Assembly (NCBI GenBank): GCA_902526175.1
Contig: CABZJY010000004.1
Coordinates: 1 to 64,000 of the forward strand
DNA: 64,000 nt
Origin: an uncultured Alphaproteobacteria bacterium
GTDB lineage: Bacteria > Pseudomonadota > Alphaproteobacteria > Methylaequorales > Methylaequoraceae
Direction: 5' to 3'
Part shown: one piece after another, positions 1 to 16,428 of the stretch
How positions within the stretch are numbered: the first letter of the stretch is position 1
Layout: every line of letters begins with the position of its first letter
Notes under the pieces: model-generated
Database searches by the model: none
What the model saw: the letters and a program-made list of their open reading frames with translations, nothing else
What the model was told of the DNA's origin: nothing
Program-made: the position numbers and the translations under genes

Positions 1-1388
1 GAAAAAGAAGAATCTAATTTTTTTTCAAAATCTAGATTTGTCTTTTTAAGAATGGGTTCGAGCCCAACGGTTTGTATTAATCTTGCAATTTCATTGTTGT
101 TCAAATCTGGATTACCTAAACTAATATTATCAATTATAGAACTATTTAAACTTCTTGTGTTTTGAGGCACATAGCTTAATTTATTTCTCCACCAAAAATG
201 TGAGAGTTTTTGCAAATTAGTTCCATCCAATGTTACTTCTCCTGAATTAGGCGCGAAAAGACCTAAAAGTATTTTGCAAAGAACAGTCTTTCCTGAACCA
301 TTTGAACCAGAAACAACATTAAGTGATCCCTTAATAAATTTGATGTTAAAATTTCTAAATAAAAAAGAAGAATTTTTAATAAAGCTAAAGTCCATATTCT
401 TACATGAAATACTCCCAGAAACTCTATTAAGCTCCATACCACTTCTTTTTCTGGAAGAAGATTTAAAAAATTCTTTGTTTTTTTTGAAATAACCATTGAT
501 TTTTTTCATATTATAAAATGATCTTTGTGCACTCATAGATATTTGTAATGCTCTAGAGGCAAAAATATTAAAACCAATTAATGTACCAACTGTTAAATCA
601 CCATTCACAACAAATGTACTTCCCAAACCTATTACTACAATAGAATTCATTATGAGTAAAAAATGACTCATACTATTTTCATAATTAGTTACTTTAGATA
701 AAGATTTATTTTTAAGAAATTGATTTTCTAATGTTTTTGAGAAATTATAAGCAGAAAATTTTAGGCCATTAAAAACTTTTAAAAATTCTGCCTTACTTAG
801 TATTTCTAATAAATTCTTTGAGTCATTTGGATGACTTTGATTATTATCTACAATAATTAAGTCTTTTTTTTCGTTGGATTTCTGTTGATAGAAAAATGCA
901 AAAAATAATATAAAAATAAAAACAGTTGCAAGTGTAGCGTTAAGAAAAAATAAAACTAAAATTATTAACGTAGCAAAAAAGAAATCAATGATATTTGATT
1001 GATTTTGAGAATTTAAAATTTTTAATAAATTATTATTTACATCAATTGCTTCAAAAAGTTCTTTACTTTTAGAATTGTTTTTTGCAGAGATTTCTTGATC
1101 GAAAAAAATTTTAAGTGCACTTAATTTTATAGATTTTATTGGTTTTATTATTATTGATGAACAAAAATTATGTCTTAGATTTCTCAATATAAATTCGAGT
1201 GAAGCAACTATTAATGCACCTAATACAAGAAAAAATAATGTTCCTTCTAAACCAAATGCTATGTACCTATTAAATATATGAATAATAAATATTGGACTTA
1301 GCAAACCCAAAAATGTAATTAAAAGTGACAAAAAAAACAATACACCCATTCCATTGTTTTCATTAATTATTTTAATCCAAAATTTCAT
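1..1388 (-). CDS. Type I secretion ABC transporter (permease-ATPase), 3' end cut by window edge
   Basis: This is the first 462 codons of an inner-membrane ABC exporter that would power type I secretion with a periplasmic adaptor and a TolC channel. It starts directly with hydrophobic segments (first about residues 15-75), so it has no C39 peptidase domain and is of the short PrtD-like kind. The nucleotide-binding domain follows at about residue 340, with Walker A GSNGSGKT near residue 370 and a Q-loop in SYVPQN. The ABC signature and Walker B would lie beyond the window edge. It starts 33 bases after the upstream FecR/RTX gene, so those proteins are its likely cargo. No adaptor (HlyD-type) gene is seen; it may lie off the edge. 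Confidence 0.85.
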   Translation of the reverse strand, partial: MKFWIKIINENNGMGVLFFLSLLITFLGLLSPIFIIHIFNRYIAFGLEGTLFFLVLGALIVASLEFILRNLRHNFCSSIIIKPIKSIKLSALKIFFDQEISAKNNSKSKELFEAIDVNNNLLKILNSQNQSNIIDFFFATLIILVLFFLNATLATVFIFILFFAFFYQQKSNEKKDLIIVDNNQSHPNDSKNLLEILSKAEFLKVFNGLKFSAYNFSKTLENQFLKNKSLSKVTNYENSMSHFLLIMNSIVVIGLGSTFVVNGDLTVGTLIGFNIFASRALQISMSAQRSFYNMKKINGYFKKNKEFFKSSSRKRSGMELNRVSGSISCKNMDFSFIKNSSFLFRNFNIKFIKGSLNVVSGSNGSGKTVLCKILLGLFAPNSGEVTLDGTNLQKLSHFWWRNKLSYVPQNTRSLNSSIIDNISLGNPDLNNNEIARLIQTVGLEPILKKTNLDFEKKLDSSF

Positions 1389-1421: not shown

Positions 1422-4043
1422 TTAAATTGGTGGTGTTAACATAATATCAGATACTGTTAAGGTATCATTATCAAAATCATTTAAAAGTGCAACTAAAGAT
1501 AGTTCGTCAGGTTCGTTAACAAACATACCATGATCATTAAATAAATCTTGCCATAAAAAGACTGCAGAATTTGTTCCATCACCCGTAATTATTAAAAAGT
1601 CGTTTGTTCCAGATACATTTTCATAACTAGTACCTTGAATAGCAAAACTTGTAAAATGATCTGCAACTACATTCTTATCTTTGTAACCAATATTTGACAA
1701 ATCTGTCTTAAAATTAATAACATTAGGTAAGATATCCCCATTACTATCAACATCATAACTTGAACCGTGTTGTGTGCTATCATTAATAAATCCTGATCTT
1801 GTATAGACATTGTGGCTTACAGTAGCATCAAAAAGTAAAGTATCATTTCCAAGTCCAAAATCATAAATAATATCATAAAAATCACTTTTGGATCCGTAAT
1901 AGAATTGATCGTCCCCTAAACCACCCTTTATTTTGTCAATTCCCTCACCTCCTTTAATAACATCATTTCCTTCGCCTGCATTAATAGTATCATTACCTCC
2001 TTTACCCTCGATTGTATCTGATAAAGAGGTTCCAGATAATGTTTCAGCTGCTTCTGTTCCACTTATTGTATTTGTAGTCTCTTGTTCTTCAGTATAATTA
2101 GTTTGAGTGTTTTCTATTGTATTGGTATTTCCATACAAAGAAGCATCTTCAAAGAAATATTCTGATTCAGAAAATTCATAGCTATCAATGTTGGAATAAA
2201 TATCTGTAAACCCCATATCAAAACCTTCAGAACCATAAACATCAAGTCCAAATTCATTCTCAAAAGTATTTTCAATATCTACACCAAATGACCCTAGAGA
2301 ATCTTGAAAATAATTAGCAACTCCAAATCCAAAATTAATTGGAGAATTAGAACCACTGAAGGTACTTATAGAACCTATACCACTCAGCATCTGACCACTA
2401 AAGACAGGTCCAGAATTAAATTTATCTGTTGAAAAATTAGATTCAATTTCTTCACCAGAAAATGCTTCCCTTATAGAATCAAGAGAAGTCTGGCTACTAT
2501 CAATATCAAAATTATCTCCACCTAAACCAGCTAGTGGAGATACTTGCTCAGATTCAATATCATCAAAAATACTTTCTCCAAACTCAACTGAACCACCTAA
2601 ATTTTCTGTAAATGGTTCTGTAATATCTGGTGTTAATTCAGCACCGGAAGCTTCAGCTGCAGCTGCCATAGCTGCCTCAGGATTAGCTCCATCTGCTAAT
2701 GCTGTTTCAAATACTTCTTCAGCTGAAACTTCATTATTTTCTTGCATATCACTTTCACTTTCTTGATCTAATTCACCCTGTTCCGGTAGTATTTCTCCTT
2801 CAGGATCTATACCTTCAATTGCATCCTCCTCAATTGTTTCATCATCAAGTCCTTCCTCTCCTTCAGGTGATATTTCTTCTTCAACAGATTCTTCAACCTC
2901 TACTTCATCCGTTGATTCAGTCGTTTCTTCATCAACATTTTCATTTTGATCTGATTCTTCGCTTGATTCTTCAGCTTGTACTTGTTCTTCTTGAGGTTCA
3001 GATTGGGGTTCTGGTTGTGGAGCAACAGCTGGAGTTGGTGGTAAAACTTCTAATGCAGTACCATAATTTGCTTGAATTTGTTCTGCTGATAAAATTATAG
3101 GTGGCGGAGGTGCCATATTAATACTAGTAACACTGGTAGTTGCACCCACTTGCGATAGAGTCTGTGTACCAGCCGCATTACTTACTGATATCTGTCCAAC
3201 TGTACCCCCAGCATCCTGGAGCAATGTAAACGAATTTTCATTACCTTCGACAGCTGCTTTACCAGCAACCGTTGTTCCTCTTATACCTAAAGTTGCAACT
3301 GGGGTACTTACAGTCATTGCATCCGATCCAGTTTTAGCAATCTCGCCACTCACAAAACTGAAAGCGCCCTCCACAATATCAATAGCCATATTACCTTCAC
3401 CACTAGTTGGATCAAATACTAGTTCATCTAAAACCATTTTTCCTCCATCAGAAAGCGACATTGTGGTTTTATCCAAAAAAACTAGTCCTACTGAACTATC
3501 TCCAATTGTTTCAATAATATCTCCTTTGAACACTGGATCCCCATCTGATAAGGTAAATACGTTACCATCTACTCGAGTAGCTTGAACCTTACCTTTAATA
3601 GCTGAAACTTCACCAATTGATAATGTATCAGAATTACCCACCTGAGCATATTGCATTGGTGCTATTGGTCCGGCCAATGCTTTTATTAATGAACCTTTTA
3701 ATAATAATCCATTTTCTGTTTCAATAGATTTTAAATCCTGATCAGAAAAATAGTTCTCAAAAATTATTTGTTCACCATTTCTATTTTTTGCTATTAAATC
3801 ACTATGAGTTCTACTAAATTCAGACTTTGGAAGCCAATAGGGTGTATTTGTTATAGTATCTTCAGAAGCTGTTTCTTTATTTTTAAGCTCTATTCTAGAT
3901 TGTAAAAGCTCTTCTCTTATCTCCGATAAAATTAATTCATTCCTAATATCAGATATATTTGATCTTAGTTCGCTTACTTTTTCATTATGGTAAAAATCTC
4001 TATGCACTACATTAAAAAGCAATCCATATGCCAGATTATACAA
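1422..4043 (-). CDS. FecR-domain protein with RTX calcium-binding repeats, likely type I secretion cargo
   Basis: This 873-residue protein probably acts outside the cell. Residues about 65-125 form an N-terminal module shared with the next gene (FSRTxxDLIA). A FecR-type domain follows (about 130-270, containing STPVATLGIRGTTVAGK). Next come a proline-rich linker and a very acidic Glu/Ser-rich stretch (about 340-470). Near residues 670-715 there are RTX nonapeptides (GGNDTINAGEGND, GGLGDDQF), and then a C-terminal tail ending in hydrophobic residues as expected of a type I secretion signal. No signal peptide is visible, which fits type I export. The N-terminal 60 residues have no counterpart in the paralogue, so the true start could be further in. 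It lies between its paralogue and the ABC exporter. Target or ligand is unknown. Confidence 0.85.
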   Translation of the reverse strand: MYNLAYGLLFNVVHRDFYHNEKVSELRSNISDIRNELILSEIREELLQSRIELKNKETASEDTITNTPYWLPKSEFSRTHSDLIAKNRNGEQIIFENYFSDQDLKSIETENGLLLKGSLIKALAGPIAPMQYAQVGNSDTLSIGEVSAIKGKVQATRVDGNVFTLSDGDPVFKGDIIETIGDSSVGLVFLDKTTMSLSDGGKMVLDELVFDPTSGEGNMAIDIVEGAFSFVSGEIAKTGSDAMTVSTPVATLGIRGTTVAGKAAVEGNENSFTLLQDAGGTVGQISVSNAAGTQTLSQVGATTSVTSINMAPPPPIILSAEQIQANYGTALEVLPPTPAVAPQPEPQSEPQEEQVQAEESSEESDQNENVDEETTESTDEVEVEESVEEEISPEGEEGLDDETIEEDAIEGIDPEGEILPEQGELDQESESDMQENNEVSAEEVFETALADGANPEAAMAAAAEASGAELTPDITEPFTENLGGSVEFGESIFDDIESEQVSPLAGLGGDNFDIDSSQTSLDSIREAFSGEEIESNFSTDKFNSGPVFSGQMLSGIGSISTFSGSNSPINFGFGVANYFQDSLGSFGVDIENTFENEFGLDVYGSEGFDMGFTDIYSNIDSYEFSESEYFFEDASLYGNTNTIENTQTNYTEEQETTNTISGTEAAETLSGTSLSDTIEGKGGNDTINAGEGNDVIKGGEGIDKIKGGLGDDQFYYGSKSDFYDIIYDFGLGNDTLLFDATVSHNVYTRSGFINDSTQHGSSYDVDSNGDILPNVINFKTDLSNIGYKDKNVVADHFTSFAIQGTSYENVSGTNDFLIITGDGTNSAVFLWQDLFNDHGMFVNEPDELSLVALLNDFDNDTLTVSDIMLTPPI

Positions 4044-4124: not shown

Positions 4125-7100
4125 CTAGACTCCTGATATCGTCTGAAACGAAAATTCTACACCTGATAAAGTGTCATTATCTACGCCTGTTAGATTAGCC
4201 ATGTGATAAAGTTCACTGCTTGCAACCACTCCATTTCCAGTATCCTCCCATACGTAAACAGATGAATTAGTTCCATTGCCTAAAATCATAAAAAAAGATT
4301 CGGCTGCTGAAATAGCAGTAGAACCATCAGTGGTGACTTTAAATCCTGATAATAAAGTAGCAACAGCTCCAGCAGAATTATAACTATTTGTATTTGATGT
4401 AAAATTAAATATGCTTGGAAGCGTATTATCTGTACTTATATTATATGTACTACCGTTTGCACCTGCATCGTTTTGAATGGTTCTCCTAGTATATGAACTT
4501 GAAGGTGTTGCCCCAAATAGTAAACTGTCTTGATCACCTGATTGTCCAAAATCTGTTATCGTATCTGTACCATCATTTAAAGCGGTAAAGTAAAACTGAT
4601 CATTTCCACCGCCACCAGTGAGAGTATCCGCATCTAATCCACCAAATAAAACATCATCTCCAGTTCCCCCTTTAAGTATATCTGTTCCACTAAATCCCTT
4701 TAAAGTCCATGATGAAGAATCTGAGCTTTTATCAAAAGTATCTGCAGCATTAGTTCCTGATTGTGTAAAATCTGTTGCTTGAATAGATGATGTTCCTAAA
4801 CCACTGGAGGAGCCACCAGTATAATAATCACCGTATAAAGATGGATCATCATAAAATTCTACAGTAAATGATTCACTTCCAGAGGATCCCCCCATAGCTG
4901 GTCCAAATCCAGGACCAAAAGCTGGACCCCCAACAAAGCCGCCTGGTCCTCCATATCCTCCAGGACCGCCAGCAAAACCTCCGCCTGGCCCACCTGCAAA
5001 ACCTCCGCCTGGCCCACCTGCAAAACCTCCGCCGGGTCCACCTGCAAAACCTCCGCCGGGTCCACCTGCAAAACCTCCGCCTGGTCCACCTGCAAAACCT
5101 CCGCCTGGTCCACCTGCAAAAACTCCAGGTCCACCATCAAAACCACCTGGAGCATATCCTCCTCCTGAAAAACCCATATTAGCTTGACCTATAGGATCTG
5201 GACCAAAAGCAAAATTAGTTGGTTGGCCCAACGGTGCAAAGGACGCTGCCCCGGGTGGTTGGGCGCCCATAAATTGATTTGGAACAAAACCACCTGGACC
5301 CCCACCTGGACCGAAATCCGCTGGACCTCCAGGGACTCCACCTGGAGCACCAATATCACCCGGTCCCCCTAGGCCGCCTGGACCACCAAATAAATCACCT
5401 GGACCACCTGGACCACCTGGAACGCCTGGACCGCCACCAAATAAATCGCCTGGACCTCCTGGACCGCCAGGGCCAACACCAAATAGATCACCTGCACCTC
5501 CTGGACCCTCAGGTCCACCAAATAACCCTTCATCTCCAATTTCTCCGAAAAGATCTCCACCACCAAATCCTTCAGGACCACCTGGACCAAAATCACCTGG
5601 TCCTCCTGGACCTCCTCCTGGACCAAAATCACCTGGTCCTCCTGGACCAAAATCACCTGGTCCTCCTGGACCTCCTCCTGGACCAAAATCACCTGGTCCT
5701 CCTCCAGGAATAGGTCCGTCAAAACCTGCTGCTGCTGCTGCTGCTGCCATTGCCTCTTCTGGGGTAGCACCGTCAGCCATTGCTGTTTCAAAGGCTTCAC
5801 GCGCTGCCGCATCTTGTTCTGGACTTGGTCCTCCATCAGGACCAAATTCAGGGCTACCCTCACCTGGTGGTAATGGTTCACCATCTGGTCCTATTGGTGG
5901 ACCTCCTTCACCTGGTGGTAATGGTTCGCCATCTGGTCCTATTGGTGGACCTCCTTCACCTGGTGGTAATGGTTCGCCATCTGGTCCTATTGGCGGACCC
6001 CCTTCACCTGGCGGTAAAGGCTCTCCATCTGGACCTACTGGAGGACCTCCATCTTCTGGAAGTGGTTCACCATCTGGACCTACTGGGGGACCTCCATCTT
6101 CTAGAAGTGGCTCACCATCTGGACCTAATTCTCCTTCGCCTTCTGGAAGTGGTTCTCCATCAGGACCCAATTCTTCTTCGCCTTCAAGAAGTGGCTCTCC
6201 GTCAGGACCTAACTCATTTTCCTCACCTTCGCCCTCCTCACCTTCAACTACTGATTCCTCTTCAACAATTTCTTCATCGTCAGACTCATCTTGATCTTGT
6301 TCTTCCGAAACATCTTGAACCTGTTGTTCTTCTTGTTGGGATTCAGGTTGAGGCTGAGGTTGTGGTGCAACTGCAGGAGTGGGAGGTAAAACCGCCAAAG
6401 CAGTTCCATAGTTTGCTTGAATTTGTGCTGCTGATAATATTACAGGAGGAGGAGGAGGAGCACTAAAACTAGCAATACTAGTTGTTGCTCCCACCTGAGA
6501 AAGTGTTTGTGTACCACCAGCATTACTTACTGAAATAGTACCAACACCGCCATCTGCGTCTTGTAACAATGTGAATGAGTTTTCATTTCCTTCAAGAGCA
6601 GCCTTACCTGCAACTGTTGTACCTCTTATTCCAATGGTCGCAACTGGTGTACTAACACTCATGGCATCAGGACCAGTTTTTGCTATTTCTCCACTAACGA
6701 AACTAAATGCTCCTTCAACCATATCTATGGCCATACTTCCATTTCCAGTGTTAGGATCATAAACAAGTTCATCTAAAACCATTTTTCCACCTTCAGATAT
6801 CGATAATGTTGTTTTATCCAAGAACACTAATCCTACGGAACCATTTCCAATTGTCTCAATTACATCACCTTGAAAAACTGGATCACCTTGATTTAAATTG
6901 ACCTCATTACCATCAGAACGAGTTGCTTTTGCCTCACCTTTAATAGCAGTAATTTCACCAATCGATAAAGTCGCATCGTTAGCTTGTTGAGCTTGAGCAT
7001 ATTTTAAAGGGTTAATATTTATAGCCAGGTTTTTGAGTAAATTTCCATTCAAAAAAAGTCCATTTTTAGTGAAGATTCCAGGTAATTCATGATGCGTAAA

Positions 7101-7295
7101 AAAATCCAGGAAAATAATTTTTTTACCGCTTATCTCTGTAGCAATTAGATCTGTTTCAGTTCTTGAAAAATTTGAGTGTATAACCCAATCTGGTACATGT
7201 TCAAGATTTAACCCAGAATTGGCTGATATAAAGGTTTTTATACCATTTACATTTTCTATGTCTAATTGACCAACACTACTGTTGCTTTTAACCAT
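4125..7295 (-). CDS. FecR-domain, collagen-like, RTX-repeat secreted protein
   Basis: This 1056-residue paralogue of the neighbouring FecR/RTX gene has the same N-terminal module (about residues 40-95), FecR domain (about 105-245) and proline-rich linker. Its middle is very different. There are acidic GPDGEPLPPGEGGPPI-type repeats (about 358-490), an alanine-rich patch, GPGDFGPGG-type glycine/proline repeats (about 530-640), and six copies of GGPGGGFA (about 725-772). RTX repeats (GGTGDDVLFGGLDADTLTGG) lie near 870-890, before a C-terminal secretion-type tail. It looks like an extended surface or matrix protein whose C-terminus folds on calcium after type I export. It starts 25 bases after the tolC-like gene. 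Its function (adhesion, matrix, ice or particle binding) cannot be told from sequence. Confidence 0.85.
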   Translation of the reverse strand: MVKSNSSVGQLDIENVNGIKTFISANSGLNLEHVPDWVIHSNFSRTETDLIATEISGKKIIFLDFFTHHELPGIFTKNGLFLNGNLLKNLAININPLKYAQAQQANDATLSIGEITAIKGEAKATRSDGNEVNLNQGDPVFQGDVIETIGNGSVGLVFLDKTTLSISEGGKMVLDELVYDPNTGNGSMAIDMVEGAFSFVSGEIAKTGPDAMSVSTPVATIGIRGTTVAGKAALEGNENSFTLLQDADGGVGTISVSNAGGTQTLSQVGATTSIASFSAPPPPPVILSAAQIQANYGTALAVLPPTPAVAPQPQPQPESQQEEQQVQDVSEEQDQDESDDEEIVEEESVVEGEEGEGEENELGPDGEPLLEGEEELGPDGEPLPEGEGELGPDGEPLLEDGGPPVGPDGEPLPEDGGPPVGPDGEPLPPGEGGPPIGPDGEPLPPGEGGPPIGPDGEPLPPGEGGPPIGPDGEPLPPGEGSPEFGPDGGPSPEQDAAAREAFETAMADGATPEEAMAAAAAAAGFDGPIPGGGPGDFGPGGGPGGPGDFGPGGPGDFGPGGGPGGPGDFGPGGPEGFGGGDLFGEIGDEGLFGGPEGPGGAGDLFGVGPGGPGGPGDLFGGGPGVPGGPGGPGDLFGGPGGLGGPGDIGAPGGVPGGPADFGPGGGPGGFVPNQFMGAQPPGAASFAPLGQPTNFAFGPDPIGQANMGFSGGGYAPGGFDGGPGVFAGGPGGGFAGGPGGGFAGGPGGGFAGGPGGGFAGGPGGGFAGGPGGGFAGGPGGYGGPGGFVGGPAFGPGFGPAMGGSSGSESFTVEFYDDPSLYGDYYTGGSSSGLGTSSIQATDFTQSGTNAADTFDKSSDSSSWTLKGFSGTDILKGGTGDDVLFGGLDADTLTGGGGNDQFYFTALNDGTDTITDFGQSGDQDSLLFGATPSSSYTRRTIQNDAGANGSTYNISTDNTLPSIFNFTSNTNSYNSAGAVATLLSGFKVTTDGSTAISAAESFFMILGNGTNSSVYVWEDTGNGVVASSELYHMANLTGVDNDTLSGVEFSFQTISGV
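4978..5121 (-). repeat. Six tandem 24-base units coding GGPGGGFA
   Basis: Six units starting at 4978, 5002, 5026, 5050, 5074 and 5098 differ only at synonymous third positions (for example ggc/ggt and ccg/cct). They code an in-frame Gly/Pro/Phe/Ala octapeptide in the collagen-like protein. The near-identity suggests recent expansion or ongoing homogenisation, so copy number probably varies between strains. Confidence 0.95.
5583..5702 (-). repeat. Tandem repeats coding GPGDFGPGG
   Basis: The 24-base block reading ggaccaaaatcacctggtcc plus cct on the plus strand occurs at about 5583, 5619, 5643 and 5679, with 12-base GGP spacers between some copies. It codes glycine/proline-rich repeats within the collagen-like protein. 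Related but more diverged Gly-Pro repeats continue down to about 5290. Confidence 0.85.
5827..6210 (-). repeat. Tandem 42-48-base units coding GPDGEPLPPGEGGPPI-like repeats
   Basis: Units begin at 5875, 5923, 5971, 6019, 6064, 6109, 6151 and 6193 (plus strand), with a partial one at about 5827. Unit length falls from 48 to 45 to 42 bases along the array, matching 16-, 15- and 14-residue acidic proline-rich repeats. The 48-base copies are almost identical, while the 42-base copies are more diverged. All length changes keep frame. Confidence 0.9.
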
Positions 7296-7320: not shown

Positions 7321-8631
7321 TTAAATCAGTTCAACAACATCTATAGTAAGACCACCCATTAAACTTAACAATGTAAAACTATTAATTAAAACTTCAATTT
7401 TTGCTGCAATTGCATCTGCTTGTGCATTGATTAGTGCAGTCTCTCCACCCAAGACGTCCAATAACGATCTATTTCCGGCTTGTCTTTCTGTACGCGCTAA
7501 TTCCAAAAATTCTTTAGAAATTCTGGCTTGATTTGTCAAAAATTGAGCATTTTGTTGTGCTGTATTAAGTCCATCCCACGTTGTCCTCAACATTTGCAAA
7601 GTCATATCGTATTGATCATCAATTCTAGTTTCAGTTGCCAGATACGACTCTACAGCTGCATCTTTACCGGCATACTCAGAAAAACTTAAGTTAAGTGGAT
7701 ATGATAAGTCAATTTTAGCGGAAGATTCTCTTTTATGACCAACAATACCACCAAAATCTTGTTTTTCAGAATGACTAATTGTTCCTTTTATGGTTGGGAA
7801 AAGAGAGGCACGAGCAGTATTTATTCCTTCTTTGCCAATTTCTTTGTTTACTGATGCAGCTTTTAATGCAGGATTATTTAAAATTGTTTTATTTTCAGCT
7901 TCCTCTAATGTTTTTGGTAATAAGTTGAATATCGATTTAGTTAGAGACAATGCATTGATATCTTTAGGGAAAAAACCAAAAACATACTCAAATTCATGTT
8001 TAGCAGCCGACAACACTCCCTCAAATTGTATTAATCTAGCCTGAGCACCAGCTAGCTGAGTTTTTGCCTGTAAAACGTCCGAAGTCAGTCCTCCACCTGC
8101 AGTTACTGCCGCATCTTCAAGCTCTGTTTGCTTCTTAATGTTAGATACAGATTGAAATGCGTATTTCACACTCTCTCTAGCCTGTATTACTCTGAGATAA
8201 GCAGTTAGTGCTCTTAATAATAAATCATTTTTAATTTGAGTCTCAATTGCTTTTGATTGTTTTACTGCAAGTTCTGAAGTTTTTACAGTTGAATCAGTTA
8301 AACCAAAATCAGTAATTGTTTGAGTGAATTTTGCTGTCGCGTCTCTAGCCGCAAGTTGAGTATTATTTCCAGACCCATACTTATTTATATGTTCATGACC
8401 ATAATTAGCTGTTAAATCAAACGATGGATAATAACCACCCTTAGCTTGTTTTACTCTTAAAATAGATGCCTTAATATCAATTTGTGTAGCCTTTATAAGT
8501 TTATGATTATTTAAAACATCATCGAGTGATTCGATTAAATTAAACTTCTCAGATACCAAAGAGGATTCTTTATCTTGGGCAAAAGTAAAATTAGCAAATA
8601 AAAAAACAAAAATAGCTAAGTATCTTGTCAT
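7321..8631 (-). CDS. TolC-family outer-membrane channel of the secretion operon
   Basis: This 436-residue outer-membrane efflux protein has an N-terminal signal peptide (about 18 residues, ending TFAQ) and two long alpha-helical hairpin halves typical of TolC. Examples are the segment around KSEIxIKNDLLLRALTAYL-like helices near residue 130 and the conserved ending of each half (for example GNRSLLDVLGGETAL near residue 385). It would form the trimeric exit duct for the ABC exporter and FecR/RTX cargo encoded immediately downstream. A second TolC-family gene lies at 50951-52324 beside valS, so this copy is probably dedicated to this secretion system. Confidence 0.9.
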   Translation of the reverse strand: MTRYLAIFVFLFANFTFAQDKESSLVSEKFNLIESLDDVLNNHKLIKATQIDIKASILRVKQAKGGYYPSFDLTANYGHEHINKYGSGNNTQLAARDATAKFTQTITDFGLTDSTVKTSELAVKQSKAIETQIKNDLLLRALTAYLRVIQARESVKYAFQSVSNIKKQTELEDAAVTAGGGLTSDVLQAKTQLAGAQARLIQFEGVLSAAKHEFEYVFGFFPKDINALSLTKSIFNLLPKTLEEAENKTILNNPALKAASVNKEIGKEGINTARASLFPTIKGTISHSEKQDFGGIVGHKRESSAKIDLSYPLNLSFSEYAGKDAAVESYLATETRIDDQYDMTLQMLRTTWDGLNTAQQNAQFLTNQARISKEFLELARTERQAGNRSLLDVLGGETALINAQADAIAAKIEVLINSFTLLSLMGGLTIDVVELI

Positions 8632-8757: not shown

Positions 8758-9480
8758 TTATCTAGCACATGATTTTTTTGAAATATCTAGATGTAGTTTT
8801 TTTTTTTCTAATAAGGATAAAAAACCTTTGTATAATTCTTCACTATTTTTTTCAAACTTAATTTCGTGTTTTAATCTTTTCGATAAAATTAAACCATTAA
8901 TGTGACCAAACATCATCGAACAAATTATATCTACATCAAGTAAAATCTTTTCTACGATATCATCAGTAGAATTAACAATTTTTGGAAAATATGTATTTAA
9001 TAAAATTCTTTTAAATCTAATCCATATTTTGTAATTAACAAAATGTTTAAAGACATAAGGCTTCAGTTTTTTTAAAGTTTTTAGTTCTTGGTAATATGGC
9101 GTACTTAATATTCTTCTTCCTTGATGATTCATATCATGTGTAAGAGCTAATAATATCAAAAATATTTTTTCATTATTTTTTAAACTAAGAATATTTGCAA
9201 ATATTGATGATATAACTATTACGGACTTAAAATGGTGCTGATCATGATAAGAATTATAAGTATGGTTTTCTGAACATTTTTTGGATAACAATTTTAAAGA
9301 TTTTCTTATTGGATATTTACAATGATAGTTTAAGTCCTTTAGACAACACAAACTAAGCTTAAACAAGTCTGGTTTTTTTTGATTCGACATTACATATTTT
9401 TTAACCAAATGCTTGCTCTTAGGCCATCTTAAAGCTAAGTATCTAATGCTAGGGAAAGAATATTCAAAAATATTTTTCAT
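8758..9480 (-). CDS. HD-type 3',5'-cyclic nucleotide phosphodiesterase-like protein
   Basis: This 240-residue protein has the metal-binding pattern of class I cyclic nucleotide phosphodiesterases. It contains YHDQHHFKSVIV near residue 78, THDMNHQGRR near residue 113 (the HDxxHxG signature) and a later LDVD (about residue 181) supplying the final aspartate. The family hydrolyses cAMP and/or cGMP to the 5'-monophosphate. It starts 2 bases after the stop of the nucleotidyl cyclase gene, so synthesis and breakdown of the same messenger would be co-expressed. The protein is shorter than most eukaryotic-type catalytic domains and has a divergent N-terminus, so activity is inferred. A plain HD-domain phosphohydrolase is the alternative. 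Confidence 0.7.
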   Translation of the reverse strand: MKNIFEYSFPSIRYLALRWPKSKHLVKKYVMSNQKKPDLFKLSLCCLKDLNYHCKYPIRKSLKLLSKKCSENHTYNSYHDQHHFKSVIVISSIFANILSLKNNEKIFLILLALTHDMNHQGRRILSTPYYQELKTLKKLKPYVFKHFVNYKIWIRFKRILLNTYFPKIVNSTDDIVEKILLDVDIICSMMFGHINGLILSKRLKHEIKFEKNSEELYKGFLSLLEKKKLHLDISKKSCAR

Positions 9481-9482
9481 TT

Positions 9483-11789
9483 TTACTTACTTTTCATTAT
9501 CCAAACCCCTTTCCAGTCACTAGGATTTTCTTTTATTAAATAATTACACCTTTCTATATATGTCCCTGACAGTGAATCATCTTTATTTGCTTTTAAACAT
9601 TCATTAAATGATGTTATTGCATTACTAAAATCACCTGATTTATATTTTTTTCTTCCTTCATTAAAATGGTTTACAACATCCATCAAATTTGGAAAAGTTA
9701 AATCGCTGTGAAAATCTAGTACTTCATGAATACCTACAGGTTCAGTTTTTCCTTTTACGATAACGTCATCTATGTATCTTATTCTGTAAGTTCCTTTTAA
9801 TTTTTTATAAGTATAATCACTAATTAATATTCTTGCATTATATTGTTTACACGCACTTTCTAATCTTGCCGCTAAATTAACTCCATCGCCAATCATTGTG
9901 TAATCCATTCTTTTTTGTGAACCAATATTACCTGCAACAATTTTATCTGTATTTAGCCCAAGTCCCATATCCAATGGGGGTTTCCCGTCTTTTTCTCTTT
10001 GATCATTCCAATCCCATAATCTTTTAATCATGTTAATACCAGCTTTTACTCCTCTATCTTCGTCATCCTCATGACTTATTGGTAAACCAAATGCAGCCAT
10101 AATTGCATCGCCTATAAATTTGTCGAGCATACCTCCTTGTTCAGAAATACATTCGACCATTATTTCAAAATATTCATTTAATAATTTTACAGTACCTTGA
10201 GCTCCAAGCGATTCTGTAATTGTGGTGAAACTTCTTAAATCTGAAAATAATAATGTTGCTGTTGTGTCTAATCCTCCCATTATATCTGCTCCATCTTCAA
10301 GTAATTGATTAGCAATTCCGGGGTCCATGTATCTTGACATAGTTGATTTCATTCTTTTTTCAGATGAAATATCTTCAAACATTAATAATGTCCCTAAAAA
10401 ATTATCAGACTGATCTGTTCTTCCATCGCTGTCTTCATTAATCAGAGGCAGAATTGTTAAATTAAGAGAAATTTTTTCGTTTTTTTCTGTATTCTTATCA
10501 AAAATTTCAACTTCGGCATCCATAATTATATCAGGTTCTTTTGATTCAGAGACATTAGTAATTTTCTCAAAAATCCATGATTTTGAATTTGAAAAAAAAT
10601 CTTTAGCTTTTTTTTTTATAATTTCATTCTCATTTATTTTGAAAATTTTAAGACCAGATTTATTACAAGTTACAATATTTCCTTCACTATCAATTGTTAT
10701 TACACCATTTGACATACTAGAAAGCATACTTTCATTATATTTTCTAGACTTTGAAACATCCTCAAACAATTTTGCGTTTTCCAATGCAATAGCTACTTGT
10801 TGTGTAAAAGCTTTTAACCTTGATTCATCCTCTTCTGTAAATTTGCCCCCACTTTTATTAAGAACCTGAGTACATCCAATTACCTTTCCTTCTTTATTAA
10901 TAATTGGAACACAAAGAATTGACCTAGTGAAATAACCAGTTTGTTTATCAAAAGCTGGGTTAAATCTGAGATCAGCATATGCATGAGGTATATTCATAGT
11001 TTTACCTGATGTAAAAACACTTCCAGCAATTCCGGCATTGTTTGGTAATCTAATTTCTCCAATACCTTCTCCCATAGCCACTCTTGAAAAAAGTTCATTA
11101 CTTTTTTCATCATTTAAAAATAACGTTGCTCTATCTGCATTTAGCATCCTAGTTGCTTCCTCCATAACTCTTTGAAGTAATGCTCCCAAATCAATTTCTG
11201 CTGTTACATCAGAGACAATACTTATAAATTCCATTTCTTTTGCTCTTTTTTTTTCAAAATGCTCAGTATTTTGCGCATTTTGAATTGATACCGCAGCTTG
11301 TGTGGAGATGGCATTAACAACTGTTAGATTATCTTTAGTAAATCTACCCTTTTTTTTATTAAGTACTTGAATTACACCAATTGTTTCACCTCCGACAGTT
11401 TTAACAGGACAGCAAATCATATTTTTAGTACGGTAACCAGTTTCTTGATCAACTTCTTTGTTAAATCTTTGATCTTTGTAAACATCATGAATAATTTCAC
11501 CTTGTTTAGAATTAAATATTGCACCAGCTATTCCAACATTGTTTAAAATCCTTATCTCTCTGGTAAGGTCTCCTTGCGCTACTCTTGAATATAATTCGTT
11601 AGTTTCCTTATCATTTAAAAAAAGAGTTCCTCTATCTGCTTCAAGTTCATTTGTTATAAACTCAATTAAGGTCCATAATATTTGACTAAGATCATGGAGG
11701 CCTGCTATTTTCTTATTAATTTCTAAAAGAAGTTCAGTTCTTCTTAATTTAATTTTTATTTCTTCAATTGAATCATTTCTTTTTTTCAT
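9483..11789 (-). CDS. GAF-GAF-PAS class III adenylate cyclase
   Basis: Domains in this 768-residue protein are GAF-A (about 20-165), GAF-B (about 190-340), PAS (about 350-470), a class III cyclase domain (about 505-690) and a helical TPR-like tail (about 695-750). The order matches the cyanobacterial CyaB1 type. The cyclase domain has metal-binding aspartates in LFSDLRSFT and DKFIGDAIMA, the Lys of DKFIGD and Thr of DYTMIGD expected for ATP specificity, and the NLAARLE asparagine/arginine pair. GAF-B carries the cyclic-nucleotide-binding signature NKSGGKFTEEDE (NK-x-F-x3-DE), while GAF-A has it imperfectly. This suggests cAMP feedback. No membrane segment is seen. It overlaps the coiled-coil gene upstream by one base and leads directly into the phosphodiesterase gene. 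Confidence 0.88.
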   Translation of the reverse strand: MKKRNDSIEEIKIKLRRTELLLEINKKIAGLHDLSQILWTLIEFITNELEADRGTLFLNDKETNELYSRVAQGDLTREIRILNNVGIAGAIFNSKQGEIIHDVYKDQRFNKEVDQETGYRTKNMICCPVKTVGGETIGVIQVLNKKKGRFTKDNLTVVNAISTQAAVSIQNAQNTEHFEKKRAKEMEFISIVSDVTAEIDLGALLQRVMEEATRMLNADRATLFLNDEKSNELFSRVAMGEGIGEIRLPNNAGIAGSVFTSGKTMNIPHAYADLRFNPAFDKQTGYFTRSILCVPIINKEGKVIGCTQVLNKSGGKFTEEDESRLKAFTQQVAIALENAKLFEDVSKSRKYNESMLSSMSNGVITIDSEGNIVTCNKSGLKIFKINENEIIKKKAKDFFSNSKSWIFEKITNVSESKEPDIIMDAEVEIFDKNTEKNEKISLNLTILPLINEDSDGRTDQSDNFLGTLLMFEDISSEKRMKSTMSRYMDPGIANQLLEDGADIMGGLDTTATLLFSDLRSFTTITESLGAQGTVKLLNEYFEIMVECISEQGGMLDKFIGDAIMAAFGLPISHEDDEDRGVKAGINMIKRLWDWNDQREKDGKPPLDMGLGLNTDKIVAGNIGSQKRMDYTMIGDGVNLAARLESACKQYNARILISDYTYKKLKGTYRIRYIDDVIVKGKTEPVGIHEVLDFHSDLTFPNLMDVVNHFNEGRKKYKSGDFSNAITSFNECLKANKDDSLSGTYIERCNYLIKENPSDWKGVWIMKSK

Positions 11790-12412
11790 TACTTCAATTT
11801 GTTAATTTTTTCTTCATAAGTTTTTATAATTTTCTCTAATTCATCTCGTAAAAGCTGACTTGATTTTTTTAGTTGATTGATTTCGTCGTTGGAATTTAAT
11901 ACAGCTTTTTGCACTTCTTTTTTCTTTGAAAATTTCATACTTTCTAATTCTTCTCTGAGCTGTGTCAGGGAACTTTTTAAATCTCTATTTTCCATAGAGG
12001 ATTTTAGAATCGCTTTTTGTACAGCTTTATCTTTTTCGAATTTCAGACTTTCAAGCTCTTCTCTTAGAGCGAAACATGATTTTTTCAATTGCTTAATTTC
12101 ACCAGCTGAAGATTGAACCTGTTTTTGTACAGCAACCTTTTTTTCAAATTTTAGTTTTTCTAATTGGTTTCTTAGCTCGGAAATAGATGATTTAAGGTCA
12201 TTAATCTCATTATTTTTATCGGAAATTGCTTGTTGAACAGCAGTATTTCTTTCAAATATAGATTGGTCTAATTGTTCTCTTAGAGAATTTATAGTTGAAA
12301 AAAGATCCTTATTTTCCTCGTTATTCTCAGACTTTATTTGTTGGACTAACTCATTTAACTCAAAAGAGAAATTAGGATTTTCCGATTTATATTTTTCTAT
12401 TAATTTTCCCAT
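11789..12412 (-). CDS. Coiled-coil protein of 36-residue repeats
   Basis: This 207-residue, highly charged, all-helical protein has no signal peptide or membrane segment. About four copies of a 36-residue unit (for example LKSSISELRNQLEKLKFEKK followed by VAVQKQ) fill residues about 40-190. Each unit holds an LRxxLE heptad stretch and an FEKxxAVQKA segment. Its stop overlaps the cyclase start (TAATG), implying translational coupling and perhaps a physical partnership with the cyclase. Not a recognised family; a scaffold or oligomerisation role is a guess. Confidence 0.75.
   Translation of the reverse strand: MGKLIEKYKSENPNFSFELNELVQQIKSENNEENKDLFSTINSLREQLDQSIFERNTAVQQAISDKNNEINDLKSSISELRNQLEKLKFEKKVAVQKQVQSSAGEIKQLKKSCFALREELESLKFEKDKAVQKAILKSSMENRDLKSSLTQLREELESMKFSKKKEVQKAVLNSNDEINQLKKSSQLLRDELEKIIKTYEEKINKLK
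11850..12300 (-). repeat. 108-base tandem repeat inside the coiled-coil gene
   Basis: The plus-strand motif g-c-t-t-t-t-t-g-y-a-c-a-g-c (coding AVQKA) recurs at about 11899, 12007, 12115 and 12223, an exact 108-base spacing. Copies are diverged but keep frame and the 36-residue period. Boundaries are approximate. Confidence 0.8.
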
Positions 12413-12465: not shown

Positions 12466-12951
12466 TTACAAACATGGGAATAGGTTGTTTTTATTAATAT
12501 TTCTATTGTTGATTTTTTTTGGAAACAGCTCATCCCAGAATACGCTATCATTAATTTTTAAGTTAAGAGTTTTTAGACATGAATAGGGTATTTCTAAAAC
12601 AGCAATAATTGGGTAATCTGAAGTTATTACCTTATCAGAAAGAGTTTTGCCTTTTATTATTTTTTTGACCTTTTTATTATTATCAATAAAGATAATTGCC
12701 AAGGAGATATGTGTATTTTTCATCCAAAATTTTACTTTCTTGGGTTTTTTATAAATGAATAACATACCGTTTGTATCTACAAGTTTCTTTTTGAACATTA
12801 AACCATTTTTTTTTTGTTTTTCTGTCAAGGCCACATCTACTAAAAGACTATAATTTCCAATATTGACTATTGTATTTTTTGAATAAGAATTTAATATGTA
12901 AGCTGAAAAAAAGATAAAGGAAAAATAAATTTTAAAATTTAAAATCTTCAC
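12466..12951 (-). CDS. DUF192 family secreted protein
   Basis: This 161-residue protein has a hydrophobic N-terminal signal segment (about residues 5-24) and then a single DUF192 domain. Hallmarks are VALTEKQKKNGLMFKKKL, GMLFIYKKP and FWMKNTHISLAIIFID, with a late WDELF segment. The family is widespread and usually exported; its biochemical role is not established. It overlaps the upstream small gene by 20 bases and precedes the coiled-coil gene by 53 bases, so it heads or belongs to the cyclase operon. Confidence 0.85.
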   Translation of the reverse strand: MKILNFKIYFSFIFFSAYILNSYSKNTIVNIGNYSLLVDVALTEKQKKNGLMFKKKLVDTNGMLFIYKKPKKVKFWMKNTHISLAIIFIDNNKKVKKIIKGKTLSDKVITSDYPIIAVLEIPYSCLKTLNLKINDSVFWDELFPKKINNRNINKNNLFPCL

Positions 12952-13177
12952 CTTTATTAATCCTATCTAAAGTAACTTTTGCTCTTTCAGATAATTCAGT
13001 TTCATTTTTCTCTTTTGTAAATTCTTCATTTGAAAGAGATAGATCATATTTTGATTTCAATGAATTGAAGGCAGATATTTGTGAAGGGGTAAGTTTCTTT
13101 AAATTACTTGATTGATTTTCAATTTCGGGGTAGTTTTTTTTTATTCTTTTTAATGATTGAGCTAATTTTTTTTTCAT
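12932..13177 (-). CDS. Small charged hypothetical protein
   Basis: This 81-residue Lys/Glu-rich soluble protein has no recognised domain. It begins MKKKLAQSLKRIKKNYPEI and contains LTPSQISAFNSLKSKYDL, which has a loose LSPRALKSLYRLSDKY-like resemblance to the 138-residue unknown at 14036-14452. Its 3' end overlaps the DUF192 start by 20 bases, which supports real, coupled translation. It may be the first gene of the long minus-strand operon; the 49-base gap to the divergent gene at 13227 would hold the promoter. Confidence 0.6.
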   Translation of the reverse strand: MKKKLAQSLKRIKKNYPEIENQSSNLKKLTPSQISAFNSLKSKYDLSLSNEEFTKEKNETELSERAKVTLDRINKGEDFKF

Positions 13178-14668: not shown

Positions 14669-15997
14669 TTAATTAGTATTAACAAATGGTATATCACACC
14701 ATTTTGTTGTATAGCAAGGAGAACTAAAATCAGACTTCATGAACCATTTTCTTTCTGATTCTTTAGATTTTTGAGCTTTTTTAAATCTTCCTACACTATC
14801 AGACGATAACCTAATTTTTCCTTCGCCAAATTTTCTATTTATTTCATCCATGACACTCATTAATTTGGAATTTTCTTCAAAAGATTTTTTGTTGTTTAAA
14901 TCATTATTACCAAATAAAAAACTTTGTATTTGTTTTTTTTCCTTTAAATCAGTAAGAATTACCCCAACTTTATTAAATTCATATCCTCTTAAGTAAATAC
15001 TCTTGAGTAATTTATCTGATTCCAGCCATATCTGTCGAGAATCTGATGTAGGTTCTTTAAATACATAGCTAACAGAATTTTTATAGTATTTCTTTTCATA
15101 GTTTGAGGTCTTTAGAAAAACATTAACAATACCACAATATAAATTATATCTTCTTAGTTTTTCTGATGCCTTTTGGACATATAAGACCAAAGCTTCTCTT
15201 ATATCTTCATATTTTGTTAGTTTCTGTCCAAAAGATCTTGAAACACATATGCTTTTTCTTTTATCATTATTATTATCTGAGATTTCATAGCATTTCATAC
15301 CTTTTAATTCTAAAATTGTTTTCTGAACTAATATTCCTTTTTTTTGTCTAGCAAAATTCTGATTCATTTTTTTTAAATCAAAGGCACTATTAAAACCAAG
15401 TTCTTTAAAATAAATTGATAGTCTTTTACCTATACCCCAAATATCCCGAATATCTATTAGTTTCAAAATAGAGTCTAAATTTTCGTCGCAGTTGATTTTG
15501 TAGACTCCTTTGTAGTTAATTTTGATATCATTTTTTTCGGAATCTTTAGCAAATTTATTTGCTATCTTTGATAAAGTTTTTGTCTGACTAATTCCTATAC
15601 TAACTGGTATACCAGTAAATTTTAATATTCTTTTTTTCAAATTATAGCAGAAGTACTCACATTCTTTTATTTTTTCTAGGTTAATAAAAGCTTCATCTAT
15701 CGAATATACCTCAACATGATCACAATAGTTTTTAATAGTTCTCATAACCCGTTTAGACATATCACCATAAAAAGAATAATTTGAAGAATAAACATGAATA
15801 CCCAAACTTTTAACTCTATTTTTAATTTTAAAAAAGGGTTCTCCCATCAGTATACCAAGTTTTTTTGCTTCATTTGACCTAGAAATGACACAGCCATCAT
15901 TATTAGATAAAACAACTACTGGTTTACCTATTAATTTTCTATTAAATAATCTCTCACAAGATACGTAAAAATTATTGCAATCTAAAAGGGCTATCAT
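14669..15997 (-). CDS. umuC: Error-prone DNA polymerase V catalytic subunit UmuC
   Basis: This 442-residue Y-family polymerase would carry out translesion synthesis with processed UmuD. It shows the palm motif LLDCNNFYVSCERLF at the N-terminus with the first catalytic aspartate, the steric region VVLSNNDGCVISRSNEAKK, and the catalytic VEVYSIDEAFINL (about residue 100). A helix-hairpin-helix region follows at about residue 185 (DIRDIWGIGKRLS), then the little-finger domain and a C-terminal tail typical of UmuC (SLxxxKWF-like ending). Length fits the family (about 420). It follows umuD by 8 bases under the LexA box at 16434. Confidence 0.95.
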   Translation of the reverse strand: MIALLDCNNFYVSCERLFNRKLIGKPVVVLSNNDGCVISRSNEAKKLGILMGEPFFKIKNRVKSLGIHVYSSNYSFYGDMSKRVMRTIKNYCDHVEVYSIDEAFINLEKIKECEYFCYNLKKRILKFTGIPVSIGISQTKTLSKIANKFAKDSEKNDIKINYKGVYKINCDENLDSILKLIDIRDIWGIGKRLSIYFKELGFNSAFDLKKMNQNFARQKKGILVQKTILELKGMKCYEISDNNNDKRKSICVSRSFGQKLTKYEDIREALVLYVQKASEKLRRYNLYCGIVNVFLKTSNYEKKYYKNSVSYVFKEPTSDSRQIWLESDKLLKSIYLRGYEFNKVGVILTDLKEKKQIQSFLFGNNDLNNKKSFEENSKLMSVMDEINRKFGEGKIRLSSDSVGRFKKAQKSKESERKWFMKSDFSSPCYTTKWCDIPFVNTN

Positions 15998-16005
15998 TGA
16001 TACTT

Positions 16006-16428
16006 TTATCTTAGTGGATGAATCGAATAAATAACTATGCCCCAGATATCGATATCACAATCATTTGTCAAACTAATTGATGGATATTTAGGGTTCTCAG
16101 ACTTAAGTAAAGGAAACTTGGATTTATTATTTTTAATTAATTTTTTAACTGTTAATTCCCCATTTATTGTGGCAATTACTATATCATTATTTTTTGCGTT
16201 CAAACTTCTATCTACAATGAGTATATCACCTGAAAATATTCCAGAATTTATCATGGATTCTCCTTTTGCTCTCACTAAGAAAGTAGCTTCGGGTTTATCT
16301 ATTAAATAATCATGTAAATTCAATTCTTTTTCAATATAGTTATCTGCAGGAGAAGGAAAACCTGCTTCTACTTTGCATAATTGGAGAGGCAAACTAGCCT
16401 TTTTTTTATATTTTTCTTTATTTGTCAT
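16006..16428 (-). CDS. umuD: UmuD, self-cleaving SOS mutagenesis protein (S24 peptidase)
   Basis: This 140-residue LexA-like protein has the self-cleavage site Ala-Gly in KVEAGFPSPADNY, the catalytic serine in GESMINSGI and the catalytic lysine in ELTVKKL. RecA filaments stimulate self-cleavage to UmuD', which joins UmuC to form polymerase V. It lacks the DNA-binding winged helix of LexA. It is the first gene of umuD-umuC-small gene and has a LexA operator 5 bases upstream of its ATG, so SOS induction is strongly indicated. Confidence 0.95.
   Translation of the reverse strand: MTNKEKYKKKASLPLQLCKVEAGFPSPADNYIEKELNLHDYLIDKPEATFLVRAKGESMINSGIFSGDILIVDRSLNAKNNDIVIATINGELTVKKLIKNNKSKFPLLKSENPKYPSISLTNDCDIDIWGIVIYSIHPLR

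Follow-up and report, generated by a model that had tools for sequence, protein, structure and literature searches.

A conserved GAF-domain cyclase and HD-protein gene pair within a type I secretion island of one alphaproteobacterial family: a candidate cAMP synthesis and breakdown circuit

Introduction

The adenylyl cyclases CyaB1 and CyaB2 of Anabaena combine tandem GAF domains with a class III catalytic domain, an architecture common to the cyclase described here, and CyaB1 has the domain order GAF-GAF-PAS-cyclase. The class I cyclic-nucleotide phosphodiesterase fold is best known from animals, and in type I secretion the LapA adhesin is under the control of cyclic di-GMP (c-di-GMP). Here we describe a gene for a GAF-GAF-PAS class III cyclase, which we call GAF-AC, and the gene directly 3' of it, which encodes a 240-amino-acid HD protein. 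Both lie in a 64,000-nucleotide stretch of DNA (the window; bases 1-64000 of contig C4, CABZJY010000004.1) from an uncultured alphaproteobacterium of the family Methylaequoraceae, whose 1.33-Mb assembly (GCA_902526175.1) comprises 31 contigs and is an estimated 83% complete. The members of this family are small and probably marine bacteria.

Enzymes of these two classes are known to occur together, since CAPE of streptophytes is a fusion of a class III cyclase with a class I phosphodiesterase, as described in an excerpt of one report (PMC8115329). With moderate confidence, we read the bacterial pair as a circuit for the synthesis and breakdown of cyclic AMP (cAMP) that would act on secretion. 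The case is built on computed gene order and gene overlap, intact cyclase residues, a class I-like predicted fold and invariant metal ligands.

Results

An earlier note on this DNA, made from the sequence alone, had described a self-contained module in which a CyaB1-like GAF-GAF-PAS-cyclase gene is followed after 2 bases by an HD-type protein with an HDxxHxG phosphodiesterase motif. Both open reading frames (ORFs) are present on the minus strand at that spacing, Pfam confirms the domains of the cyclase, and the motif of the HD protein reads HDMNHQG. The features of the pair are as follows.

9483-11789, minus strand: GAF-AC, a 768-amino-acid GAF-GAF-PAS class III cyclase of predicted adenylyl type (Pfam, PDB matches, residue motifs)
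10782-11192, minus strand: second GAF domain of GAF-AC, residues 200-336 (Pfam; NKFDE-like string NKSGGKFTEEDE)
10419-10709, minus strand: PAS domain of GAF-AC, residues 361-457 (Pfam)
9741-10259, minus strand: catalytic domain of GAF-AC (motifs FSDLRSF, LDKFIGD and DYTMIGDGVNLAAR)
8758-9480, minus strand: the 240-amino-acid HD protein (HD-PDE), a putative divergent class I-type cyclic-nucleotide phosphodiesterase, its substrate presumed
9232-9249, minus strand: YHDQHH motif of the HD protein, residues 78-83 (catalytic/metal histidines; invariant Y78, H79, H82, H83)
9118-9138, minus strand: HDMNHQG motif of the HD protein, residues 115-121 (metal His-Asp; invariant H115, D116, H119, G121)
8929-8931, minus strand: D184 of the HD protein, a candidate for the fourth metal ligand (most relatives read LDADI here)

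We surveyed the pair in 96 genomes including the window's own, many of them incomplete, of which 32 belong to the window's family. The HD gene was found in 20 genomes, every one within the family, and a cyclase over the 1e-60 threshold in 27, comprising 19 family genomes (one copy being cut by a contig end) and eight outside. The HD gene lies directly 3' of GAF-AC in all 18 complete family copies, and in 17 of these the two genes overlap by 4 bases (ATGA type), the window alone having a 2-base gap. Since 18/18 family orthologues keep this adjacency, it goes beyond chance, and the tight linkage noticed in the window is thus a conserved one. Selection on the HD gene is purifying: the ratio of nonsynonymous to synonymous substitution rates (dN/dS) is 0.02-0.11 across 15 pairs from 6 genomes, and for the cyclase it is 0.006-0.034.

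All Pfam matches of the cyclase exceed the curated cut-offs: GAF in two stretches (5.1e-39), PAS_9 between the GAF and catalytic domains (6.2e-08; 33.3 bits against a cut-off of 27) and Guanylate_cyc on the catalytic domain (2.9e-23; 82.9 bits against 21.9). Its best PDB match is 1ykd (1.2e-43), a tandem GAF chain named adenylate cyclase, which we take to be CyaB2, and the closest solved catalytic domains are 6fht, 2w01 and CyaB 3r5g. We assume that the cyclase motifs hold the two metal Asp residues, the adenine-selecting Lys with Thr/Asp, and the transition-state Asn and Arg. FSDLRSF, LDKFIGD and DYTMIGDGVNLAAR are kept in all 18 complete family orthologues, with one X, and NKFDE-like strings were found by a loose pattern in both GAF domains of all 18. 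At the purine-reading places GAF-AC has Lys (LDKFIGD) and Thr (MDYT), the same as CyaB 3r5g, whereas 2w01, presumably the guanylyl cyclase Cya2, has Glu and Gly. Given the Lys/Thr pair, and that the metal, Asn and Arg motifs are kept in 18/18, GAF-AC is predicted with high confidence to be an adenylyl cyclase. Its description as CyaB1-like is supported for class III membership, adenylyl type and tandem GAF domains. A guanylyl cyclase feeding a circuit that uses cGMP seems to us very improbable: class III domains do include guanylyl cyclases and cGMP can compete for a GAF domain of CyaB2, as excerpts of two reports state (PMC8115329; PMC4411481), but the Lys and Thr of CyaB 3r5g, rather than the residues of 2w01, are present in all 18 orthologues.

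The evidence for the HD protein comes mainly from its relatives taken together and from its predicted fold. All 20 homologues found were aligned, and 17 of them form alignment A1, with L004, L017 and L020 omitted because they contain X; Y78, H79, H82, H83, H115, D116, H119, G121 and D184 are invariant in all 17 rows. Against PDB sequences, the A1 profile gave 75 matches at E<=10, the best 60 of which are all named phosphodiesterases (top 1.2e-04). Comparison by hhalign with six alphaproteobacterial PF00233 proteins (alignment A2, drawn from 10 genomes with PF00233) gave 97.9% and 5e-13, in a register where the YH..H, HD..H.G and AD[IL] columns coincide and D184 is aligned with the Asp of AD[IL]. 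The zinc ligands of class I phosphodiesterases are His, His, Asp and Asp, according to an excerpt of PMC13095499; the expected ligands and the preceding YH are present in the HD protein (H79, H83, H115, D116 and D184).

A template-free AlphaFold model of the HD protein (mean predicted local distance difference test score, pLDDT, 79.1; predicted TM-score, pTM, 0.81) has 12 helices. Foldseek returned 472 matches at E<=10, of which the best 50, with probability 0.99-1.00 and a lowest E of 0.019, are without exception cyclic-nucleotide phosphodiesterases. In VIA, where Z below about 13 may mean little for helical bundles, the model matched 1zkl (Z 17.2, 3.2 Å, 230 residues) and PDE7A 3g3n (Z 17.1, 3.5 Å, 232 residues); here too the best 50 matches are all cyclic-nucleotide phosphodiesterases, a result compatible with other HD folds as well.

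Among 398 genomes of the phylum, the A1 profile matched only the window's own at E<=1e-05. A search of 385 genomes from the class gave ten with a match at E<=0.01, four of them from the family; in the six others (G051, G080, G182, G198, G279 and G294) the match is weak and falls together with one to PF00233, a family seldom found in the class (10/372 genomes at E<=1e-05, in a search whose control matched 0/14 genomes).

Several results weigh against assigning the HD protein to the cyclic-nucleotide phosphodiesterases. As a single sequence it has no match in Pfam (at E<=1 or E<=10) or NCBIfam and nothing significant among PDB sequences; PHROGs yielded two weak matches, at 1e-05 to 'phosphohydrolase' and at 0.0074 to a virion protein. 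The mean pLDDT of its model is only 79, and Foldseek gave zero matches at E<=0.001. On single relatives, the generic HD superfamily model matched 16/17 (best 1.5e-06), PDEase_I a smaller and weaker 9/17 (best 1.3e-04, at E<=10) and HD-CE 5/17 (best 3e-04). The class I signature, given in an excerpt of PMC10865986 as H-D-[LIVMFY]-x-H-x-[AG]-x(2)-[NQ]-x-[LIVMFY], does not fit the window's protein (HDMNHQGRRILS), which has I at the [NQ] position, and its relatives have I or V there. Class I phosphodiesterases also have an invariant purine-binding Gln (PMC13095499, excerpt). By our own reading, this residue is unrecognisable in the HD protein. Residues 216-221, L-[YF]-x-x-F-[LI], resemble by eye a Gln-x-x-Phe site, which we take to be the class I purine-binding site, with Tyr/Phe replacing Gln.

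Alternatively, the HD protein may be a metal phosphohydrolase for another substrate (a nucleotide, a 2',3'-cyclic or other phosphoester) that serves the secretion genes of the operon and has no part in cAMP breakdown; COG4339-type HD proteins were a further alternative considered. The lead of the generic HD model over PDEase_I, the departure at the [NQ] position and the unrecognisable Gln all fit such an enzyme, as does the finding that the HD gene still adjoins a TolC gene in the two HD-holding genomes without GAF-AC, G003 and G016. However, phosphodiesterases make up all the best matches in the profile and fold comparisons, the HD gene follows GAF-AC in 18/18, and G003 and G016 both retain the island's other cyclase, the CHASE2 cyclase described below; we consider another substrate unlikely. 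For the phosphodiesterase proposed in the earlier note, a better fit to HD families unconnected with cyclic nucleotides would be a difficulty, and on this the result is divided: the generic HD model does lead in the relatives, whereas the window's protein itself matches none of these families (E<=10). Among solved structures, profile and model both rank cyclic-nucleotide phosphodiesterases first. In predicted fold and, probably, in chemistry the HD protein resembles class I enzymes, but it is short and divergent and we do not count it as a full member; it is likely to hydrolyse cAMP or cGMP.

No other cyclic-nucleotide phosphodiesterase candidate was found in the 32 family genomes with the two models used. 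The CpdA model had 0/32 matches over its cut-off and PF02112 had 0/32, the latter a weak negative, as its control matched 2/14 genomes and none over the cut-off. From these negatives, in a set with many incomplete genomes, the HD protein emerges as the sole candidate found; weak sub-cut-off CpdA matches in 7/32 family genomes, many of them incomplete, count against that status.

The HD protein ends in, or close to, S-K-x-[SL]-C in all 18 genomes with a complete GAF-AC (window ...SKKSCAR), an ending that is absent in G003 and G016. Possibly this tail contacts the cyclase.

The neighbouring genes in the window are the following.

12932-13177, minus strand: 81-amino-acid ORF
12466-12951, minus strand: DUF192 protein, upstream of the cyclase/HD unit (Pfam; position conserved in relatives)
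11789-12412, minus strand: 207-amino-acid coiled-coil-like protein, with one base in common with the cyclase start
7321-8631, minus strand: TolC-family outer membrane protein (OEP 3.4e-49)
4125-7295, minus strand: FecR and RTX-repeat protein (Pfam FecR and HemolysinCabind)
1422-4043, minus strand: second FecR and RTX-repeat protein (Pfam)
3-1388, minus strand: ABC transporter, truncated where the contig begins

The TolC protein scores 201.1 bits with the type_I_sec_TolC model, under the cut-off of 225.15. The FecR/RTX protein at 4125-7295 is probably a type I secretion substrate; the LapA retention model matches it weakly (28.3 bits, under the cut-off of 50). Long Gly/Pro-rich repeats were also seen in this protein. 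UmuC-like (IMS) and Peptidase_S24 genes at 14669-16428 stand beside the island and likewise adjoin it in several relatives. Counts of promoter-like sites (28, against 38.3 expected) and of terminator-like sites (3, against 1.7 expected) gave no useful information.

The earlier note had supposed the pair to be self-contained. It is instead part of an island that also carries two sets of type I secretion genes, another cyclase and several cyclic-nucleotide-binding (cNMP-binding) proteins, and the HD gene persists without GAF-AC in 2/20 genomes that have it. The HD gene and the CHASE2 cyclase share one contig in ten genomes (G003, G006, G010, G014, G016, G018, G023, G027, G028 and G030). Typically, the first half of the island runs DUF192, coiled coil, GAF-AC, HD, TolC, one or more FecR/RTX proteins, an ABC protein (~530 amino acids) and HlyD (~425). 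On the opposite strand follow a small protein, a P-II-like protein, DUF1538 and one or two cNMP-binding proteins (~146 and ~155 amino acids), then the CHASE2 cyclase (~790), an HlyD protein with an N-terminal cNMP-binding domain (cNMP-HlyD, ~575) and an ABC protein with a C39-like domain (~720); where the stretch extends further, the far end holds a low-complexity protein and TolC. GAF-AC and the coiled coil are lacking in two of the ten (G003 and G016). ABC exporter, HlyD adaptor and TolC-family protein, the parts of a type I secretion system, thus occur together, although in the window's genome they are split across contigs C4 and C19; from gene order, C19 (L101) would continue the island from the start of C4. 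PF00027 was found in 32/32 family genomes and PF00211 in 26/32.

Some individual stretches merit separate record. At L101:4385-6773, next to the CHASE2 cyclase and the genes for cNMP-binding proteins, DUF1538 is followed by the P-II-like protein and one more small protein from the same BLAST cluster. At L111:10874-12604, an HlyD adaptor fused at its N-terminus to a cNMP-binding domain adjoins a C39-like ABC exporter. L123 and L124 (contigs C12 and C19 of G003) are look-alike stretches with an extra 643-amino-acid class III cyclase, a 240-amino-acid HlyD-cluster ORF and many small ORFs.

Within the survey, some findings tell against a fixed cyclase/HD partnership. G003 and G016 keep DUF192-HD-TolC without the coiled coil and GAF-AC, and in G003, which is 96% complete, no GAF-AC was found at the threshold used; because two of the 20 HD-holding genomes are without GAF-AC, the pair is not obligate. 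Outside the family, 11 GAF-AC-like loci were found, and at none of the nine examined (L049 and L050 being left out) did our own ORF caller, with overlapping ORFs dropped, place an HDxxHx[GA] ORF beside the cyclase. The coiled-coil-like gene adjoins GAF-AC both in the window's family and at L072 of another family (G059), where the coiled-coil/cyclase pair is kept. This suggests, tentatively given trees with long branches and an unsure root, that coiled coil and cyclase are the older unit, to which the window's family added the HD gene before one of its branches lost the cyclase.

The same genomes bear on which cyclase the HD protein serves. It might serve an island-wide cAMP pool fed mainly by the CHASE2 cyclase, the junction with GAF-AC being secondary; this overlaps with the reading that we favour and differs in the key cyclase. 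G003 and G016 point in this direction, as they keep the HD gene without coiled coil and GAF-AC and carry the CHASE2 cyclase on the same contig, and the HD tree groups the two (98/94), though two long branches meet there. On the other hand, the 4-base GAF-AC/HD overlap in 17/18 points to selection on the junction, and in the CHASE2 tree the GAF-AC-bearing G000 falls outside a clade (99/98) in which 15 genomes with GAF-AC stand alongside four of the five labelled as lacking it. By this tree GAF-AC may equally well have been lost; the CHASE2 and HD trees have long branches and an unsure root, and the labels 'without GAF-AC' of G004, G005 and G009 rest on genomes 66-84% complete. On balance, we regard a primary role for the CHASE2 cyclase as doubtful.

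Candidate readers of cAMP lie in the same island. We take the cNMP phosphate-binding motif to be GE-hydrophobic-x-L...R-x-A/S. A motif of the type GEMALI[DR][KR]QPRSA occurs in all 19 cNMP-HlyD proteins fetched (HlyD-cluster proteins over 500 amino acids), and the phosphate-binding motif is present in 35/40 small cNMP-cluster proteins, the misses being three unlinked and two island copies (G010 and G017). A search of 289 genomes of the class found cNMP-HlyD in five outside the family (G258, G089, G142, G286 and G223). These matches span the cNMP-binding part, because they align from residue 5-19 onward, and each gene has an ABC partner beside it. Neither the ORF list nor BLAST showed an island cyclase or HD gene in the flanking stretches of these five, a finding unfavourable to a general tie between such adaptors and the pair.

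Discussion

Based on these observations, we propose the following model. GAF-AC would synthesise cAMP, a product that we infer from its Lys/Thr pair, and would probably be regulated through cyclic nucleotide bound by its GAF domains. The HD protein, encoded by the overlapping or abutting gene, would hydrolyse cAMP as a divergent class I-type metal phosphodiesterase, and the CHASE2 cyclase of the island may supply the same cAMP pool. The readers of cAMP would probably be the island's cNMP-binding proteins, above all the HlyD adaptor with its N-terminal cNMP-binding domain. With these as probable readers, cAMP may gate type I secretion, of which the FecR/RTX proteins are putative targets.

The steps of this model differ in strength. 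That cAMP controls secretion by the island is a plausible but tentative proposal. A more specific version is speculative: two cyclases, one under GAF and one under CHASE2 control, and one class I-type phosphodiesterase would set cAMP next to two type I secretion systems, and cAMP bound directly by the cytoplasmic cNMP-binding domain of cNMP-HlyD, and by the small cNMP-binding proteins, would switch export of FecR/RTX surface proteins without transcription.

Among the titles and abstract openings listed by searches of open-licence literature, we found no report of the cyclase/HD pair or of a cNMP-HlyD secretion system. A short class I-type phosphodiesterase co-translated with a GAF-bearing cyclase would provide a compact natural system for testing how synthesis and breakdown work as a pair. 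Should cNMP-HlyD respond to cAMP, it would be a case of a classical second messenger with a direct effect on type I secretion machinery.

How does this locus compare with known systems? In contrast to CyaB1 and CyaB2 of Anabaena, the window's cyclase is alphaproteobacterial and has a coiled-coil gene upstream and the HD gene downstream. With class I phosphodiesterases (PF00233) the HD protein has its predicted fold and metal-ligand motifs in common, but it has 240 amino acids against 277-338 for the chains matched by VIA, and its model has 12 helices against the 16 given for class I in an excerpt of PMC13095499. The standalone alphaproteobacterial PDEase_I proteins (L137-L146) are alike to it in their YHN..H, HD..HDG and AD[IL] motifs; the six that were aligned are longer, at 318-394 amino acids. 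A motif check of the short flanks of the standalone PDEase_I genes flagged no cyclase. One of these loci, L145 (G131), is a long ORF with two PDEase_I-like units, which read IHDWHHDG in the first and ICHWHHTG in the second at the corresponding place.

TolC, ABC, HlyD, FecR and RTX repeats are also found in known type I secretion systems whose RTX proteins are FecR/LapA-like; to these parts the island adds a cNMP-binding domain on the HlyD adaptor as well as cyclases. The proposed cAMP-gated export would parallel the control of the LapA adhesin by c-di-GMP, with cAMP in its place. Finally, whereas CAPE, as far as the excerpt of PMC8115329 describes it, is one fused eukaryotic protein with the phosphodiesterase first, the window's pair consists of two bacterial genes with the cyclase first. 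CAPE is nevertheless a precedent for the pairing of class III cyclase and class I phosphodiesterase activities.

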